Assembly: GCA_937930305.1 (NCBI GenBank)
Contig: CALGLE010000039.1
Span: 1 to 64,000 of the forward strand
Direction of reading: 5' to 3'
DNA length: 64,000 bases
Origin: an uncultured Granulosicoccaceae bacterium
GTDB lineage: Bacteria; Pseudomonadota; Gammaproteobacteria; Granulosicoccales; Granulosicoccaceae
This document shows, piece after piece, positions 47,059 to 56,525 of this stretch; within the stretch, counting starts at the first letter, position 1, and each line of letters opens with the position of its first letter. The position numbers and the translations under genes were made by a program. Below the pieces are notes generated by a model that saw only the letters and a list, made by a program, of their open reading frames with translations, had not been told where the DNA came from and ran no database searches.

Positions 47059-47141
47059 TTGACAGATTCACCCGGTTAATTGACAAGCCCAGGCTGGCAC
47101 TGGACCATACACCCATCTTTTAAACATTTTTGGATGGTCAG

Positions 47142-47918
47142 ATGGTTATTTGGTTACTAGGCCTCATCACACTAGGCTTACTGTTGTGGTTTGGTTACAA
47201 AGTATTCTCAGGCGGTGTCGGTTCTGCGTTTGACGCAGCAAACGAGAGCAGCGGTTCAAGTGGCAGCGGTTCGAATGGTGCACATGGCCACGGCGAACAG
47301 AACATTGCTGATGGCTCGGCGTCCGGCGTAACCTCTGACGGCAGTTCATCAGCATCGCCAGCTGCGTCATCGGGTGCGGGTGCAAGTGCGGGTGCAAGTG
47401 CGGGTGCAAGTGCGGGTGCAAGTACCGACACCACTAGCAGTGCAACTTCTAGTGCAAGTGCAAGTAGCGGGACAGATACCGGTCCGGGCGCAGGCGCAGC
47501 CGCAAACAGTGGTGCTGCCGCAGGCTCTTCCAATGCAGGCTCATCTGGTGCCGGTGCAGCGGTTGCTGCCGGCGCTGCAGCGGCCGCCGTGGGTGGCATT
47601 GCGGCAGTTCGAAGTGCTTCACGCCCAAATGCGTCCGCTGACCCCATTGTGTACGAAAACGTCACATCCGGCGCAGACATCACAGCATCGGGTAATGGCG
47701 CCTCTGGCCATGCTGCCGGTGTTGCTGACGCGTTGTCGGCTCAAGAAGCCGGTAGTGTTCGCGAGATGATTAAAATTCTCAATCTACGCGAGTCTGATGC
47801 TTCACGACTCGGTGTTGATCAATCTCAATTTGCGAGCCTGTGGCAAGGATCCACGGACGCCGTTGATGCCAGCACTTTATCGTCGGTTCACTCACGTCTG
47901 CAAAACATGTTGAACTGA
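47142..47918 (+). CDS. Membrane-anchored Ala/Gly/Ser-rich protein of unknown function
   Basis: The protein has one N-terminal helix (VIWLLGLITLGLLLWFGYK), then about 170 low-complexity residues rich in Ser, Gly and Ala, partly made by a 12-base tandem repeat. The C-terminal about 60 residues (EAGSVREMIKILNLRESD onward) look folded and helical. I choose ATG 47142, with GGATGG just upstream, over a TTG at 47130. It follows rne by 83 bases on the same strand with a possible shared transcript. I recognise no family. Alanine-rich linkers like this can extend a C-terminal domain from the membrane. Confidence 0.7.
   Translation: MVIWLLGLITLGLLLWFGYKVFSGGVGSAFDAANESSGSSGSGSNGAHGHGEQNIADGSASGVTSDGSSSASPAASSGAGASAGASAGASAGASTDTTSSATSSASASSGTDTGPGAGAAANSGAAAGSSNAGSSGAGAAVAAGAAAAAVGGIAAVRSASRPNASADPIVYENVTSGADITASGNGASGHAAGVADALSAQEAGSVREMIKILNLRESDASRLGVDQSQFASLWQGSTDAVDASTLSSVHSRLQNMLN
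47376..47423 (+). repeat. Perfect 12-base tandem repeat, four copies
   Basis: The unit GCGGGTGCAAGT occurs four times without change. It encodes alternating Ala-Gly-Ala-Ser. Perfect identity points to recent expansion by slippage; copy changes keep the frame. Confidence 0.95.
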
Positions 47919-47947: not shown

Positions 47948-48568
47948 ATGTTGATTGATGACCGAAATGTTCACGATGTAAAACGCGACGTTAAGTGGAT
48001 CGTTTTACTCGTGGGCATTATTTGGTTGGTGTTCGCAGCCGACTACTTCCTGCCGCTTGAGCAGTTTGGGTTAGTCCCAAGAACGGCAAAAGGGCTGCTT
48101 GGAATCGTTGCGATGCCATTTCTGCATGGCGATTTTGCACATATCATGGGCAACACGATTCCGTTAGTGTTCACGCTCGCGTTACTCGCGGGTTCTCGCG
48201 CCAACAGCGGCCAGATTGTTCTTCTAATCGCCCTATTAGCCGGCATTGGCCTTTGGGTTTTTGGCCGAGAGGCCAGGCACATCGGTGCCAGCGGATTGGT
48301 GTTCGGCCTCATCGCTTTTCATATTTTTGCCGGCGTATTCGAACGCCGATTAATCCCTATACTGTTATCAGTTGTGGTGGGCGCTTTGTATGCCGGTACT
48401 TTGTTCAAGGGCGTGTTACCCATGCAAGAAGGGGTTTCCTGGGATGGACATTTAATTGGGGCACTGGCGGGAACCTTTGTGGCACTGATGGTTTCAAAAG
48501 TTCTTCTTCAAACGACTAAGCTAAACCATTCAGACCCCTACGACGATATGTTCAATCGACGCAGTTAA
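47948..48568 (+). CDS. Rhomboid-family intramembrane serine protease
   Basis: A 206-residue membrane protein with about six helices. Rhomboid landmarks are HGDFAHIMGN (the His-x3-Asn oxyanion segment, in helix 2), the nucleophile Ser in HIGASGLVFGL (GxSG, helix 4) and the general-base His in SWDGHLIGALAG (helix 6). It cuts membrane proteins within or near the bilayer. The substrate is unknown. It lies 30 bases after the Ala/Gly/Ser-rich protein and 75 bases before an ABC operon with extracytoplasmic peptidase domains, so this is a cluster of membrane proteolysis genes. Confidence 0.92.
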   Translation: MLIDDRNVHDVKRDVKWIVLLVGIIWLVFAADYFLPLEQFGLVPRTAKGLLGIVAMPFLHGDFAHIMGNTIPLVFTLALLAGSRANSGQIVLLIALLAGIGLWVFGREARHIGASGLVFGLIAFHIFAGVFERRLIPILLSVVVGALYAGTLFKGVLPMQEGVSWDGHLIGALAGTFVALMVSKVLLQTTKLNHSDPYDDMFNRRS

Positions 48569-48643: not shown

Positions 48644-49606
48644 ATGGTCGATACCAATCTGCAAGAACCCAGTCATACTTCGGTGCACGCTCAGGCCAAC
48701 ATCGCGCCCCTGGTTTCTCTAACTGATGTGACAAAACGCTATGGCAAATTAACGGTTCTTGAAAACTTAAATTTGCATGTTCGCCCCGGAGAAATATACG
48801 GTTTCTTGGGTCGTAACGGTGCCGGTAAATCAACTGCCATTCGACTCATGATGGGAATTTCTCCGCCAAATTCAGGAACGGTGTCAGTGTTTGGTGCACC
48901 GATGCGCGGTGCTCGCTGTGCCAAAGCACGTCGTCACATTGGCTTCGTGGCTCAAGAGCAATCTTTCTATCCGTGGATGACGCCAAAGCGATTAGGTAAG
49001 TTCATGCGCGGTTTATATCCGGATTGGAGTGATGATCGTTATTACGCGCTGCTTAAACGCTTTGAGTTACCGCTCACTCGCAAAGCGGGCAGTTTCTCCG
49101 GTGGGATGAAAGCGCGCTTAGCGTTATCGATGGCATTAGCGGCGATGCCAAGAATATTGATATTGGACGAACCTACAGCCGGCATGGACCCGGTTGCACG
49201 CCGGCAATTTTTATCATTAGTCAAAGCGGAAGTTCAGAACAGCGATACCACCGTCTTTTTCTCAACCCATTTAATTGGCGACATTGAAAGCTTGGCCGAC
49301 CGTATTGGCATACTAGACGGTGGCAAGTTAGTTTATGAAGGGTCTTTGCAAGAACTTTCCACTCGCACAGCCAGCTACACAGCGAATGTAACGGCAGAAA
49401 CCGATGCTTTTCCACTGGATGAATTAGCGGGTCATCCGTTCGAAACGATTCGAGCGGGAGGAGACAGGACCCAACAAACGGTGGTACTGCGTTGGCTTGA
49501 AAATGAAAGGCCCAGCATCCCAGCATCCGCATTACCCAATGGCTGGCAAGAGGTGCCTATGTCGTTAGAGGATATTTTTGTTGCGATTATTCTGCAGCAG
49601 CACTAA
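48644..49606 (+). CDS. ABC-2 type transporter ATPase
   Basis: A 320-residue nucleotide-binding protein of the CcmA/NatA-like group. Walker A is GRNGAGKST, the signature FSGGMKARLALS, Walker B ILILDEPTAGMDP and the H-loop STHLIGDIESL. About 90 C-terminal residues form a regulatory extension. It has about 30 residues before the ATPase domain, so the start could be later. It is followed after 18 bases by two membrane-subunit genes and should power them from the cytoplasmic side. The closest roles in this group are export of peptides, lipids or antibiotics and assembly of cell-surface parts. Confidence 0.93.
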   Translation: MVDTNLQEPSHTSVHAQANIAPLVSLTDVTKRYGKLTVLENLNLHVRPGEIYGFLGRNGAGKSTAIRLMMGISPPNSGTVSVFGAPMRGARCAKARRHIGFVAQEQSFYPWMTPKRLGKFMRGLYPDWSDDRYYALLKRFELPLTRKAGSFSGGMKARLALSMALAAMPRILILDEPTAGMDPVARRQFLSLVKAEVQNSDTTVFFSTHLIGDIESLADRIGILDGGKLVYEGSLQELSTRTASYTANVTAETDAFPLDELAGHPFETIRAGGDRTQQTVVLRWLENERPSIPASALPNGWQEVPMSLEDIFVAIILQQH

Positions 49607-49624
49607 AAACTATCCGGTAAAGAC

Positions 49625-51619
49625 ATGGTAACGCTGACGTTTTTAAGAAAAGAATTGGTAGAACACGGCTTAGCTATTGCGGCGCTTGTGTTTGCTGTGG
49701 TGTGCGCCCTATTCATCACCCTAGCCCGCCAGCAAAATCAAGAGTTCAGTATTTCGCCTTTAGAAATATTGAGCTATTCGCTGTACACCTTTATTCCCTT
49801 AACCGCGTTTATTTTAGGTAATCGGTTAATTGTTCGAGACTACCGATCTAGGGCGCAGCTGTTCACCGAATCTTTGCCAACTCGACGCTTCATACCCGTC
49901 TTGGTGAAATACCTTCTAGGCGCATTCATAGTGACGGGGCTGATGCTGATCACCTTGTTACTGGCCTCTCGATACGCCAGTGTGGTTGACAGCATTACGC
50001 CCGAATATTTTGGCCTACTGGCATTAAAAACCTTGTCCTTAGCGCTTTTGTATTGGTCGGTGATGTTCGCCATCAGTTTATCTGGCCATCTTCGCTTGTT
50101 GCTGTATGTGCTGTTGATCGGCTCGGTTTATTATCTATTGACCACCAGTTCAGTGGATGTCACCGACTTTGGCCCCTTTGCCTTATTAATGGACGGCACC
50201 TTGGCCTACGAACGAGTGGATATCCCTTATAAAGCGTTGAAGGAAACGTGGGCATTAACTGCAGCCTTCACCTTGGTTGGCTTTTTAATTGCGCTTTGGC
50301 ATGAAGGCTCGATGGCTGAAGTTTTGTCTCGCCCTATGGCTCGCCGAGATTACTTAATGGTGGGTTTTATTGTGGCAGGCTTTGCCACGGTGCTCAGTAT
50401 CTTGGAAAAAGAACCCTCACCCGATCCATTTCCAATCGCCACTCGACATCGCCTGGATGGCGATGCACACGCGATTACGATTGCTTACATGGAAGATGGT
50501 GCCAAGGCGGCAGCTCAGCCGGTGTTGGAAGGGCTATCAAACGATCTTGATACGTTGCAGGCTACGATTGGCCCAATTGCACTCACACCCTCTTACATTG
50601 TGCACGACGACTCTTTAGCTTCATGGGAATTCATTGCAGAACGCGCCGACGGTCCGTTGGTGTATGGCAACTTAACCGAAGCAGACCATTATGATCGTGT
50701 GGTGTTTCGAACCACTGTTTTGCATCAACTGCTTTTAAGTACCAGCGGCAGTCGAGCGGTGTTCGAATACTTTCACTGGTTTTTAGATGGTTTTACACGA
50801 CGCATCACCGAAGCCAGCACCGCAGCCAGTACAGCAACAGAGCGAGAACAGAGTCGGTACGAATTAATGGCCAGAGCCGTCATCTCGCAAGAAGTGTTGG
50901 GCGACAAAGTGAACTTAATCTTCCAATGGCAAACCATTGCTGACACCATTGGCTATGCCTCGGCTGAGGCCCTAGCCTACAGCGCACTGGTTTATTTAGA
51001 GGAACAACAAGGTGCTGACGTTATTAACGACCTAGCGTCGCGTTGGCTACTTACCCCCTATGAACGTGATAGCCGCGCCTCACTGCGTCGTTGGACAAAC
51101 GATGTGCCGGAAGAGTTTGAAGACATAACTGGTCTAAACTGGAGTGAATTCATGACCGGTTGGAGAAGCTGGTTAAGAGCACAAAACGACATTCCAGAAA
51201 TTGCCCGCAGAACTTCTGCACTCAGTTACCGCTCGGGTGCGGTACACATTGTCGATAACGACGATTATGGACAGTTGCTACTGGGTAGCTTCGCGGCTTC
51301 AGACTCAAAGCTGCCTGATCCGTCTGAATTTGAAGTGCCTGAATCCTCAGCCAGTCTCATCACCGACAATTCATTACAAGAAAGGAACGCAGCACAGACA
51401 ACTTGCGTACTGAACTACGACGCAGCGGGCCCTTTTGATACCGAGATGGACTTTGTGTTCGACAACTTTTCAGCACAAGCCTGTGAGGGCGAGACGTTCA
51501 CGGTATACGACTTCAACATCGCAGGTTCGGGTGACCGGGTTTATATGACGCTGGAAGTACAATTGCCTGAATTTCATCAGCCGATTCGTTTGCACGCTGA
51601 GCGGGTAACCTCGCCATGA
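49625..51619 (+). CDS. ABC-2 permease fused to an inactive peptidase-like domain
   Basis: The first about 265 residues form an ABC-2 membrane part: helices near 13-35, 52-72, 95-118, 133-152, 155-172, 195-215 and 240-258. The rest (about 400 residues) is outside the membrane and aligns by order and spacing with the peptidase-like domain of the next gene. At the place of its HExxH motif this protein has HQLLL (residues 367-371). In place of the third zinc ligand Glu it has Asp388 in FLDG. So catalysis is lost though the fold seems kept. It likely forms a heterodimer with the next gene product, whose start overlaps its stop (ATGA). Confidence 0.8.
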   Translation: MVTLTFLRKELVEHGLAIAALVFAVVCALFITLARQQNQEFSISPLEILSYSLYTFIPLTAFILGNRLIVRDYRSRAQLFTESLPTRRFIPVLVKYLLGAFIVTGLMLITLLLASRYASVVDSITPEYFGLLALKTLSLALLYWSVMFAISLSGHLRLLLYVLLIGSVYYLLTTSSVDVTDFGPFALLMDGTLAYERVDIPYKALKETWALTAAFTLVGFLIALWHEGSMAEVLSRPMARRDYLMVGFIVAGFATVLSILEKEPSPDPFPIATRHRLDGDAHAITIAYMEDGAKAAAQPVLEGLSNDLDTLQATIGPIALTPSYIVHDDSLASWEFIAERADGPLVYGNLTEADHYDRVVFRTTVLHQLLLSTSGSRAVFEYFHWFLDGFTRRITEASTAASTATEREQSRYELMARAVISQEVLGDKVNLIFQWQTIADTIGYASAEALAYSALVYLEEQQGADVINDLASRWLLTPYERDSRASLRRWTNDVPEEFEDITGLNWSEFMTGWRSWLRAQNDIPEIARRTSALSYRSGAVHIVDNDDYGQLLLGSFAASDSKLPDPSEFEVPESSASLITDNSLQERNAAQTTCVLNYDAAGPFDTEMDFVFDNFSAQACEGETFTVYDFNIAGSGDRVYMTLEVQLPEFHQPIRLHAERVTSP

Positions 51620-53523
51620 TGACGTTATTTAAAACCGAGTTTCGGCAACTGTGGCCTTTGGCCGGTTTGTGGTTACTGTTGGAGTTACTGCACACCGCTC
51701 TTTTGGTATTCACCACCCGCTTGGATGAATCTGAATACGGTGTGCTGTGCGATGCGTTTTGCCAACCGGGCATTGCCTCTTCGGCGATATTTTTATTGGT
51801 CGCCATCATTGTGTGGGTGGGTTGGAGTTTATTCCCACGCGATAGCGATGATGGCACCTTGGCGCACTTACAATCGTTGGCGCTAACCCGACCGCAAATT
51901 TACTTTGCCAAGGTACTGGCCGGGGTTGCCTTAATTTTATTTTTCTTTGTACTCAGTTCCGCTACCACCTATCTACTTGTGGCGTTAAATCCGCAGTCAA
52001 TACATGGCAAATTCTACGCAGCCATGGAATGGCAACACTTTTTACGCGGCATGGCATTTTCTGCCATCGTGTTGTGCCACGCGGTATTTTTATCATCGTT
52101 CCGCTTAGTCGGATTGGTGTTGTACGCCGGCTACTTTGTGTTGGTCAGCTGGCTGGAATCCGCGTTCGGAAACGTCGGTGCGTGGAATTTGTTAAACCTG
52201 ATGAGGGTGGATTACTTTGGCACGCAGCTCATCACCAATTGGATGATGTACGCAGCACATGCCGTGGTTGCACTGATTGCACTATGGCTAGGCTACTTGC
52301 GCTGGATGGGCCGAGAAAATAGCCCCACCTTTGGTCGCATCGCGATGGACTCTCCTTGGTTAACGGTACCCGTCATGGTGTTACTGTTCCTGGGTTTAAT
52401 CGCGGGACTACTACAACACTCCAACCAATCGGTTGCTCAGCGAAACGATCTGTACGACTCGCTTGAAACTGAACACTATCGGTTTGTGTATCACAAAAAC
52501 TCAGCCCCGTTTGCAGAAGAGCTGGCTGAAGATGCCGATGACATGCTGCGGCGAATAGCCGACTATTTAAATACGGATACGCCACCAAAAATTCAAACCG
52601 ACCTAACCGCTAACACCAGCCACGTTGCTGGCTTAGCGGTTCATAACCGCATTCGTATGCGATTAAGTCGCTTTGCTCAAAATAAAGATAACCCCTTTGT
52701 ACTGGCCCATGAAACGGCGCACGTGTTCCAGTCTCATGTCACCCGTCGACGCTTGAAGAAAGTCGATTCCAGCGTTAACTTCTTTGTTGAAGGGATGGCC
52801 CAACAAGTGGCCTATACCGTTCAGCCCGATGACAAGGTGAGAAACATCAATTGGGTTGTGGGAGCGCTTGCCGCGGAGCGCAACGACATTGATTTTGCCG
52901 ACCTTGTCGATGCACGGAAATTTGGTGAAAAATTTGATGCTGAATTGCCCTACACGCTTGGGGATTTATGGGTGAACACCATGACCGAAATTTGTGGGCA
53001 CGATAGCCTAGGAAAGTTCCTGAACATCATCGGCTCTGATGATTCCGTATTGGCGCTTCAAGGTGTGGCCTTTTGGCGACAACACTTGCAGCGTATCCCG
53101 TGTGAATTAGAAGACATTAACTTCCGATTCCGCGAGAGAATCAAAGAAATCGCTAATTCCGATGCCGCCAAAGCCATTCCAGCAACGCAGAGCATCAGTT
53201 TGCGCGTGGACGACGATGACACAGATGTGTTTTGGTTAGACCTGACAGTAGAAAACCCCTTCACTCTAGATGAAGACGGGCTACCCGATGGCGGTAGGGA
53301 CTACATGCTAAGGGTACGTAGCGGCGCATCTCTGGCTAAAGGGATTGATGAAATGATTGTTGGTTACCCGCAGTCGCTTGAAAACCCAGCTTTGGTTTCG
53401 TTTCGCTTATCAAGAGCACAATTTAGCGATGCACGGTTTCAATATCAGGTTGGTTATTTAGGTGGGTATGACTATCGATCCGTGTTTGACGAATGGCAAA
53501 ACGCCGCCGTGCCACGACGTTAA
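51616..53523 (+). CDS. ABC-2 permease fused to a zinc metallopeptidase (gluzincin) domain
   Basis: The N-terminal about 275 residues are an ABC-2 type membrane domain with about seven helices. The extracytoplasmic part (about 290-635) contains a zinc peptidase motif: His365-Glu366-Thr-Ala-His369 (HExxH) and, 23 residues on, Glu392 in FFVEGMAQ. This is the HExxH...E layout of M1-like and MA-clan peptidases, with the usual EGxA after the third ligand. A C-terminal beta-rich part follows. Permease/M1-peptidase fusions are known in proteobacteria, but their job is unclear. It is the last gene of the ABC operon; its stop overlaps the convergent hydroxylase-like gene by four bases. Confidence 0.85.
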   Translation: MMTLFKTEFRQLWPLAGLWLLLELLHTALLVFTTRLDESEYGVLCDAFCQPGIASSAIFLLVAIIVWVGWSLFPRDSDDGTLAHLQSLALTRPQIYFAKVLAGVALILFFFVLSSATTYLLVALNPQSIHGKFYAAMEWQHFLRGMAFSAIVLCHAVFLSSFRLVGLVLYAGYFVLVSWLESAFGNVGAWNLLNLMRVDYFGTQLITNWMMYAAHAVVALIALWLGYLRWMGRENSPTFGRIAMDSPWLTVPVMVLLFLGLIAGLLQHSNQSVAQRNDLYDSLETEHYRFVYHKNSAPFAEELAEDADDMLRRIADYLNTDTPPKIQTDLTANTSHVAGLAVHNRIRMRLSRFAQNKDNPFVLAHETAHVFQSHVTRRRLKKVDSSVNFFVEGMAQQVAYTVQPDDKVRNINWVVGALAAERNDIDFADLVDARKFGEKFDAELPYTLGDLWVNTMTEICGHDSLGKFLNIIGSDDSVLALQGVAFWRQHLQRIPCELEDINFRFRERIKEIANSDAAKAIPATQSISLRVDDDDTDVFWLDLTVENPFTLDEDGLPDGGRDYMLRVRSGASLAKGIDEMIVGYPQSLENPALVSFRLSRAQFSDARFQYQVGYLGGYDYRSVFDEWQNAAVPRR

Positions 53524-55187: not shown

Positions 55188-56521
55188 TTAACATTGCGAT
55201 AAAACATCACTGGCAGACGCTGTGGTTGTCTGATTATCAGGAGAATTAACAACCGTATTGTCTAACGGCACCGAGCATTGTGCCGCGGTGTCGACCGGAC
55301 TGATGGATTCTATGACCAAATTACTGGGTAATCCGTGTTCACCGGTACACTCGGCATTTTCAGATTGTGACTGTTCTTCCTGTCCCTGTTGATCCATCAG
55401 ACCTGCCGTAGGATGTTGAGCCTCACCCAATTCGAGTTCAGCAATTGAAGGGCGACTAGGCGCGGGATCTTCCACGTTGACGTGATTCGCTATTGCTCGA
55501 CTTTGCATACGAACCGTGGCCACTGCACGCAGTGGAATCTGACCCTGTAGGTAGAACGATGCATTACTCGGATCCGCCAAGACCATGAGTTCTTTTAGTA
55601 CAAAATCCACCCCTGGCAAACTCATATCGAACCAAGGAAATTTCAATTCGTAGCCATGGGTGACCTCAATTTTCAATAGGTTTGCATCTTGTATTGTCAC
55701 CCCTGATGTGGCACCAACGGATGTTGAGCGGTGCTGCAAATGAGCATTGGGTAAAACCGTTTCGCCAGTTTCAAGGTCACGCACACCAAAATCGTCAAAA
55801 GCGGCTGCAGTTGGATTAATTATTCTTAGTTGTGTTCGAAGTGGGTTATTCACCGCTGCAACGGCTCTACCCACTGCACTTCTAACCCCATCACTACTTC
55901 CATCACCACTGAAAATTGGCCCCAGTCGATACGCCAGCTCTTTTTTCATCTCCTGATTGCTAGCCTGAGTTACCGCACCAGATCTGGCCGCTTCAAACGT
56001 TGCGTAATCTAGAATATTTCTCGCGTGATAAACCAATCCCATTTGGATAATCCCCATACCCAAAAAAATCAGGATCGGTGCAACGATAATAAACTCAACC
56101 ATCGAAGCACCCTTCTGATTCTGAGTCAAGAACCCTCGCGTGTTACTTTTTTTCTTGGGATTGAGAAGAAGTGATCCAAATTCAATACGAGAACCGACCT
56201 CAATATTCAGATTGCCAATACCACCTTCACAAAGCTCAAGAACACTAAAAGCGCGGTTATCGATACACATTGAAAACGGTTTAAGGGATTTAAGTGATAG
56301 CACACGATCCTGTTTATCAAGAAAGACAACATCAAGCGTTCGTTTTAATCCTATGCCGTGCACCGCAGAACAGCCCCTCAGCAAAACGCCGTGTTGCAAA
56401 TTGAAGTGTTTCCGAAAAAATACACCTTGCATCCGTGTGAACGCGTTTTGACATAGATAGATTCGCGTTAGACCACGAGGGCGTTCGTCAGATCGCGAAA
56501 TAAATACCGTTGTCTCAGCGG

Positions 56522-56525
<4 letters not shown>
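55188..56525 (-). CDS. DUF192-like domain fused to TadE-type pilus protein
   Basis: A 445-residue protein of two parts. Residues about 17-120 look like a DUF192 domain: RMQGVFFRKHF, GVLLRGCSAVHGIGLKRTLDVVFLDK (in pieces) and SVLELCEGGI match that family's order. From about 137 there is a TadE-type sequence QKGASMVEFIIVAPILIFLGMG, with the Glu after the Gly-Ala-Ser start, as in pseudopilins cut by a prepilin peptidase. A large exported C-terminal region (about 260 residues) follows, with Cys residues near the end. The start overlaps the stop of the lipoprotein gene by four bases. The fusion puts a stretch before the cleavage site, far longer than a normal prepilin leader. Confidence 0.8.

Follow-up and report, generated by a model that had tools for sequence, protein, structure and literature searches.

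A three-gene set of Granulosicoccaceae for a putative ABC-2-type transporter with two predicted gluzincin-like outside domains, one with and one without the zinc motif

The window, that is, the whole stretch of 64,000 nucleotides analysed here, comes from an uncultured Granulosicoccaceae bacterium with a genome of 4.2 Mb. On its forward strand, three neighbouring genes encode an ABC ATPase and two permease-type subunits, hereafter A and B, with the following features:

48644-49606, + strand: ABC ATPase, 320 aa, an open reading frame matching PF00005 at 106.7 bits (cut-off 25)
49625-51619, + strand: permease A, 664 aa, about seven helices followed by a predicted outside domain without HExxH at the site
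50429-51616, + strand: predicted outside domain of A, residues 269-664, gluzincin-like by profile, zinc motif lost
50723-50791, + strand: former active-site stretch of A, residues 367-389 (H367, R377, E381, H384, W385, D388, G389)
51616-53523, + strand: permease B, 635 aa, about seven helices followed by a predicted outside domain with a complete HExxH..E
52441-53520, + strand: predicted outside domain of B, residues 276-635, gluzincin-like by profile
52708-52722, + strand: HETAH of B, residues 365-369, with H365, E366 and H369 in 28/28 genomes
52789-52800, + strand: EGMA of B, residues 392-395, with Glu392 as the presumed third zinc ligand, in 28/28 genomes

The coordinates and open reading frames of the set (48644-53523), as well as the residues H365, E366, H369 and E392 of B and HQLLL 367-371 and D388 of A, are exactly those given in an initial annotation of this DNA. 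Its description of two related membrane parts, one outside domain with the motif and one without it, beside a single intact ATPase, was also confirmed. The ATPase contains Walker A (GRNGAGKST), signature (SGGMK), Walker B (ILILDEPT) and H-loop (FSTHL) motifs, all four of which are kept in 27/27 aligned rows from loci of named genomes, a count that omits the truncated ATPase of one locus (L066). Its best NCBIfam match was DrrA, an exporter type, at 176.5 bits and below the cut-off of 312, and with 193 families compared GldA scored 128.4 bits, below the cut-off of 402.6. The genes of A and B overlap by 4 bases in the window, and the same 4-base overlap was observed in 24 of 29 loci, with the start of B taken from the match and not from the longest ORF in nine of them. 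The outside domains comprise 360-400 residues each and are C-terminal in both permeases.

The membrane parts of both subunits matched ABC-2 models in the right region, with scores below the cut-offs, A matching ABC2_membrane_5 (18.1 bits, cut-off 25) and B matching ABC2_membrane_2 (23.1 bits, cut-off 27.2). Averaged hydropathy of B presented seven peaks. A presented six clear hydrophobic stretches, one of which, 33 residues long (137-169), was read as two helices, and the seventh helix of A depends on this splitting. Most basic residues lie on loops 55-95 and 222-252 in A and on loops 64-104 and 220-257 in B, a placement that would leave the C-terminal domains outside; loop 165-208 of A, outside by the same count, is also basic. 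Cysteines conserved in more than 90% of rows (45, 49, 460 and 496 in B, 594 and 620 in A) are all outside by this count, and Cys460 and Cys496 of B were present in 31/31 rows, Cys594 and Cys620 of A in 28/28 rows. We infer from these patterns a topology of seven helices per subunit with the C-terminal domain outside.

The pairing of A and B had been proposed in the initial annotation, and both subunits were searched for in the window's own genome and its relatives. B was found in 28 of 57 genomes and A in the same 28, with no genome having one of them alone. These comprise 25 of 27 genomes of the genus, 3 of 9 from other genera of the family and 0 of 21 from the rest of the class, and the two genus genomes without a match are 63% and 82% complete. 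A's domain was detected in 32 of the 48 genomes searched in the order, all 48 of which belong to one family. A scan of named genomes yielded 30 loci, 29 of them titled Granulosicoccaceae or Granulosicoccus and one titled 'Chromatiales bacterium'. The nearest named relatives are Granulosicoccaceae MAGs with 68-70% identity in B, and a genome consisting of one contig of 7.8 Mb (G023) carries the A/B set. The order ATPase-A-B was observed in 27 of the 30 named loci, and in L060, L068 and L087 the contig begins inside the set or just before B. Granulosicoccus, the genus of the type strain Granulosicoccus antarcticus, also has lineages that are abundant on kelp surfaces (PMC9238374). Domain-only searches with A and B detected no further member in 274 genomes of the class, B's domain had none among 249 genomes of the phylum, and a plasmid search found B on no plasmid. 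When the full-length B profile was run against the 274 class genomes, only short matches to the membrane part appeared outside the family, in 18 genomes, and the domain searches of class and phylum gave five weak matches outside the family (E 0.02 to 0.08), four of which were read. Within the genomes searched, we found no member outside the family.

The genes flanking the set differ between lineages. Eight recurrent neighbour families were checked, and they suggested no shared pathway. Seven of them had Pfam matches, namely an EAL-domain protein (cut by the contig end), an iron alcohol dehydrogenase, a methionine synthase, a NYN protein, a mechanosensitive channel, a Na/H exchanger and a sensor kinase, and the eighth had none. 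In the flanks of the named loci, no substrate gene was seen travelling with the operon. A rhomboid protease gene directly upstream of the operon (47948-48568, + strand) was considered as a part of it and dropped, since among the named loci it was seen next to the operon in two close relatives, L061 and L062; in L087 it lies near B on the other strand. Among the 30 named loci, the order RNase E, low-complexity protein, rhomboid, ATPase, A, B was observed in L061 and L062. The low-complexity protein of the window (47130-47918, + strand) has repeated GAS units and matches SARAF weakly, below the cut-off. A single ORF of the window at 55188-56525 (- strand) combines DUF192 with a TadE pilus-type domain, both over Pfam cut-offs, and in L061 two ORFs match this region.

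In HExxH enzymes, the Glu of the motif serves in catalysis rather than in zinc binding. In B, His365, Glu366, His369, Glu392 and Gly393 were unchanged in 28/28 genomes, and because these genomes had been retrieved with the whole protein and not with the motif, this conservation exceeds chance. The motif was also present in 31/31 rows of a second alignment, which is weaker support, since 30 of these rows were fetched by motif patterns; one B alignment omits a locus (L014) with an in-frame TAG in B. An HExxH followed by a downstream Glu ligand, as in gluzincins (clan MA), was thus found in B in every one of the 28 genomes. A, in which the site reads HQLLL (367-371) followed by Asp388 in the window, had HExxH at the site in 0/28 and Asp388 in 28/28, and cannot be placed among gluzincin enzymes by this pattern; a stray HEKPH at residue 470 of one of the 28 A proteins is away from the site. 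The asymmetry between an intact B and an altered A is fixed across 28/28 genomes, and the outcome that the initial annotation had set against its pairing idea, namely HExxH kept at random in both subunits, did not occur.

The former site of A shows conservation of its own. Arg377, Glu381, Trp385, Asp388 and Gly389 were found in 28/28 genomes and His367 and His384 in 27/28, the sole genome without either histidine (G032) retaining Asp388 and an intact B. Seven of the 14 invariant columns of A's 396-residue outside domain (28 rows) are located within the 23 residues 367-389. Alignments of this domain omit the partial A of L060 and L068 (L087 has no A) and consequently do not include G032, and the 28/28 for His367 and His384 in aligned rows therefore excludes the genome that has neither. 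A decaying copy would hardly keep residues 367-389 as the best conserved stretch of its domain, and A's former site looks repurposed rather than decaying. The earlier statement that A had lost the site is right for the zinc motif, which is absent, but too simple for a region that is the best conserved of the domain. A tentative extension, in our view unlikely, is that A has been rewired, with His367 on the former zinc helix and His384/Asp388 (HxxxD) on the stretch after it making up a novel metal site of two His and one Asp that replaces HExxH..E. The joint loss of His367 and His384 in G032, a single event, is in line with such a site, which would mean that two different metal centres face each other outside the membrane.

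Kinship of the two outside domains had been suggested in the initial annotation, and profile comparison of the full-length proteins favours it. The A and B profiles were collinear over 550 columns with a probability of 98%, and in later alignments, made with realignment off, they spanned 594 columns with a score of 89.7. When the columns of A's domain were shuffled, 0/60 shuffles reached 89.7 (maximum 83.9), and the furthest end in B was 425 compared to the observed 615, no shuffle running as far. The membrane parts alone gave a probability of 94% and the outside domains alone 1%. Compared directly, the outside domains of A and B matched weakly, with a score of 24.0 that was reached by 2/100 shuffles, and the score of a slice around the site was reached by 39/100 shuffles.

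In addition to these direct comparisons, a reference set of HExxH proteins was obtained from two weak matches of the B profile (E 0.079 and 0.045). These two proteins, L117 and L146, have HExxH and EG motifs. Two proteins of the set matched no Pfam peptidase family, and its members count as peptidases by motif only. Homologues of one of the two weak matches, collected from 17 of 143 genomes, formed the reference profile, which has the query plus 20 more rows, one of them a duplicate of the query, all retained. Two of its rows have a degenerate motif, L166 with QKLTQ and Ala in place of Glu and L165 with HETMS, and two others, L160 and L168, are short. One genome (G087) holds two copies from the reference set, L166 being the one with the degenerate motif and apparently a pseudo-peptidase. 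Peptidase_MA_2 (PF13485) was also tried as a reference and dropped, as its single match in 56 genomes (in the window's own genome, on contig C4) left too few rows. Since the reference set was chosen through B, its match to B is not independent, whereas its match to A is independent of that choice.

B's domain (residues 276-520) matched the reference with 97.2% probability and a score of 80.1, and A's domain (residues 270-535) with 86.5% probability and a score of 47.3. Neither score was reached by any of 100 shuffles (maximum 24.1 for B and 24.6 for A). Across 40 jackknives, the score of B never dropped below 57.7; its HExxH coincided with the reference motif in 40/40, and Glu392 was on the third ligand in 38/40. 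For A the median of the jackknife scores was 43.1, and the lowest, 26.6, came near the shuffle maximum of 24.6. Asp388 of A was on the third ligand in 34/40 jackknives, unaligned in 6 and never elsewhere, so this part of the register proposed in the initial annotation is the firmer one. The other part, with His367 as the first zinc His, was reproduced in 20/40 Viterbi jackknives and left unaligned in 20, but posterior realignment placed His367 on the second zinc His. As aligned, A lacks the catalytic Glu and one His in either register. With references cut to two rows, the median score was 44.3 for B and 21.0 for A, a drop which indicates that the kinship of A needs the whole reference profile and is weaker than that of B. 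A's domain had no Pfam peptidase match in 28 members and no PDB chain match; the window's B domain stayed below every Pfam cut-off, and its PDB search gave no peptidase. Taken at the level of profiles, a gluzincin-like peptidase ancestry is well supported for B's domain, and that A's domain is an altered relative of it is fairly supported. The suggested kinship of the two domains can therefore be upheld through their collinear alignment (550 and 594 columns) and shared reference set, though not through their direct match, which is weak.

The interpretation we favour, and to which we give about an even chance, is an enzyme/pseudoenzyme machine in which ATP drives the presentation and cutting of a peptide, either exported or from the membrane. 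The three genes would encode one complex, made up of an ATPase dimer and a heterodimer of the ABC-2 permease halves A and B, and each half would span the membrane about seven times and carry a gluzincin-like domain outside the cytoplasm. B's domain would be a zinc peptidase, and A's domain, derived from the same fold and without the catalytic Glu and one zinc His, would be its partner, either holding the substrate or controlling B. ATP binding and hydrolysis would move the permease halves, and a peptide or membrane protein might be drawn out or presented between the outside domains and cut by B. Placing A and B in one complex draws on gene order and co-occurrence, and also on the gene overlap and the collinear kinship. 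The heterodimer, its topology, and the zinc binding and peptidase activity of B are predictions from sequence, and A and B may jointly handle a peptide that is pulled out of the membrane or across it; the substrate and the direction of transport named here are guesses. If this interpretation is true, the two permease halves of a membrane machine powered by ATP have a fixed pair of active and inactive peptidases built in. Being small and self-contained, the three-gene set would make the function of such proteins open to tests by deletion and by single-residue loss-of-function variants.

Alternatively, the set could be an ABC-2 exporter with a built-in maturation peptidase, in which a peptide is exported and trimmed by B at the exit, with A as a scaffold. 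Such an exporter would agree with the weak ABC-2 matches of both permease parts, with DrrA as the best NCBIfam match of the ATPase, and with a peptidase motif located on the predicted exit side. However, no recurrent small precursor gene was found in the flanks, where ORFs of at least 80 aa were counted and shorter ones could be missed, and the former site of A is conserved beyond the need of a mere scaffold. We regard the exporter as possible, if rather doubtful. In A as in B, an outside domain comes after the last helix, and its presence on both halves sets them apart from the two M1 fusions discussed below; this would suit a power stroke without transport of the kind attributed to MacB, LolCDE and FtsEX. 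ATP would then open and close the outside pair, either pulling or releasing envelope proteins or switching the peptidase on. This appears decidedly improbable to us, given that the permease parts resemble ABC-2 models, even if weakly, and that B's membrane part is similar to the second permease half in the M1 fusions. That B is not a peptidase in practice, with HExxH..E binding zinc for structure or sensing and the pair acting as a receptor, would be compatible with the absence of any known activity and with Pfam matches of the window's B domain that are all below cut-off, but it is very improbable considering that Glu366, at the position which in HExxH enzymes is catalytic and does not bind zinc, is unchanged in 28/28 genomes.

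The favoured machine can be compared with several known systems. Permease/M1-peptidase fusions occur in other bacteria and had been mentioned in the initial annotation, but no M1 match was found for either domain. At E up to 10 and with HMMER's filters on, the 23 Pfam families matched by 31 B domains did not include Peptidase_M1 (PF01433), nor did the 13 families with matches among 28 A domains, leaving an M1 identity of the outside domains unsupported, and the only PF01433 match of the window's own genome is on another contig, C10. The two M1-permease fusions examined, L199 (1201 aa) and L200 (1227 aa), are single chains with two permease halves, of which only the second carries an HExxH domain and the first is without a large domain. 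In comparison, the A/B set has two genes, and each half bears a domain. Adjoining the fusions is an ORF with a Walker A motif, and the ATPase gene is likewise next door here. The membrane part of B resembles the second half of the M1 fusions (score 42.2 over 213 columns, E 2.7e-5, 0/40 shuffles). Against the M1 fusion domain, for which the profile rests on two sequences, B's domain gave a weak match (score 29.0, E 0.0076, 0/40 shuffles) and A's domain was no better than shuffles, 10/40 of which reached its score. When references of two rows are compared, the median of B was 44.3 (26.3 to 64.3) for the non-M1 set, to which its domain is the closer, compared to 29.0 for M1, and A, with a median of 21.0 compared to 18.1, did not tell the two apart.

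The best sequence relatives found for both domains are HExxH..EG proteins of the L117 type, with the same order of HExxH and EG, although A's domain is without their zinc motif. L117 has PD40 repeats, and the segments examined of L117 and of L146 showed no permease part; such proteins may be located outside the cytoplasm and cut peptides. The GldA/GldF/GldG gliding-motility ABC system also combines one ATPase with two permease-type subunits having an outside part, and to our knowledge it has no zinc-peptidase motif. We know of no function assigned to permease-peptidase fusions, and a literature search likewise gave none. Searches of open-licence full texts gave no description of the A/B pairing among the titles and abstract starts listed. 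Judged by these sequence comparisons, the system is apparently a variant of the permease-peptidase idea, with a different type of peptidase and, on the other half, a second, altered copy of it.
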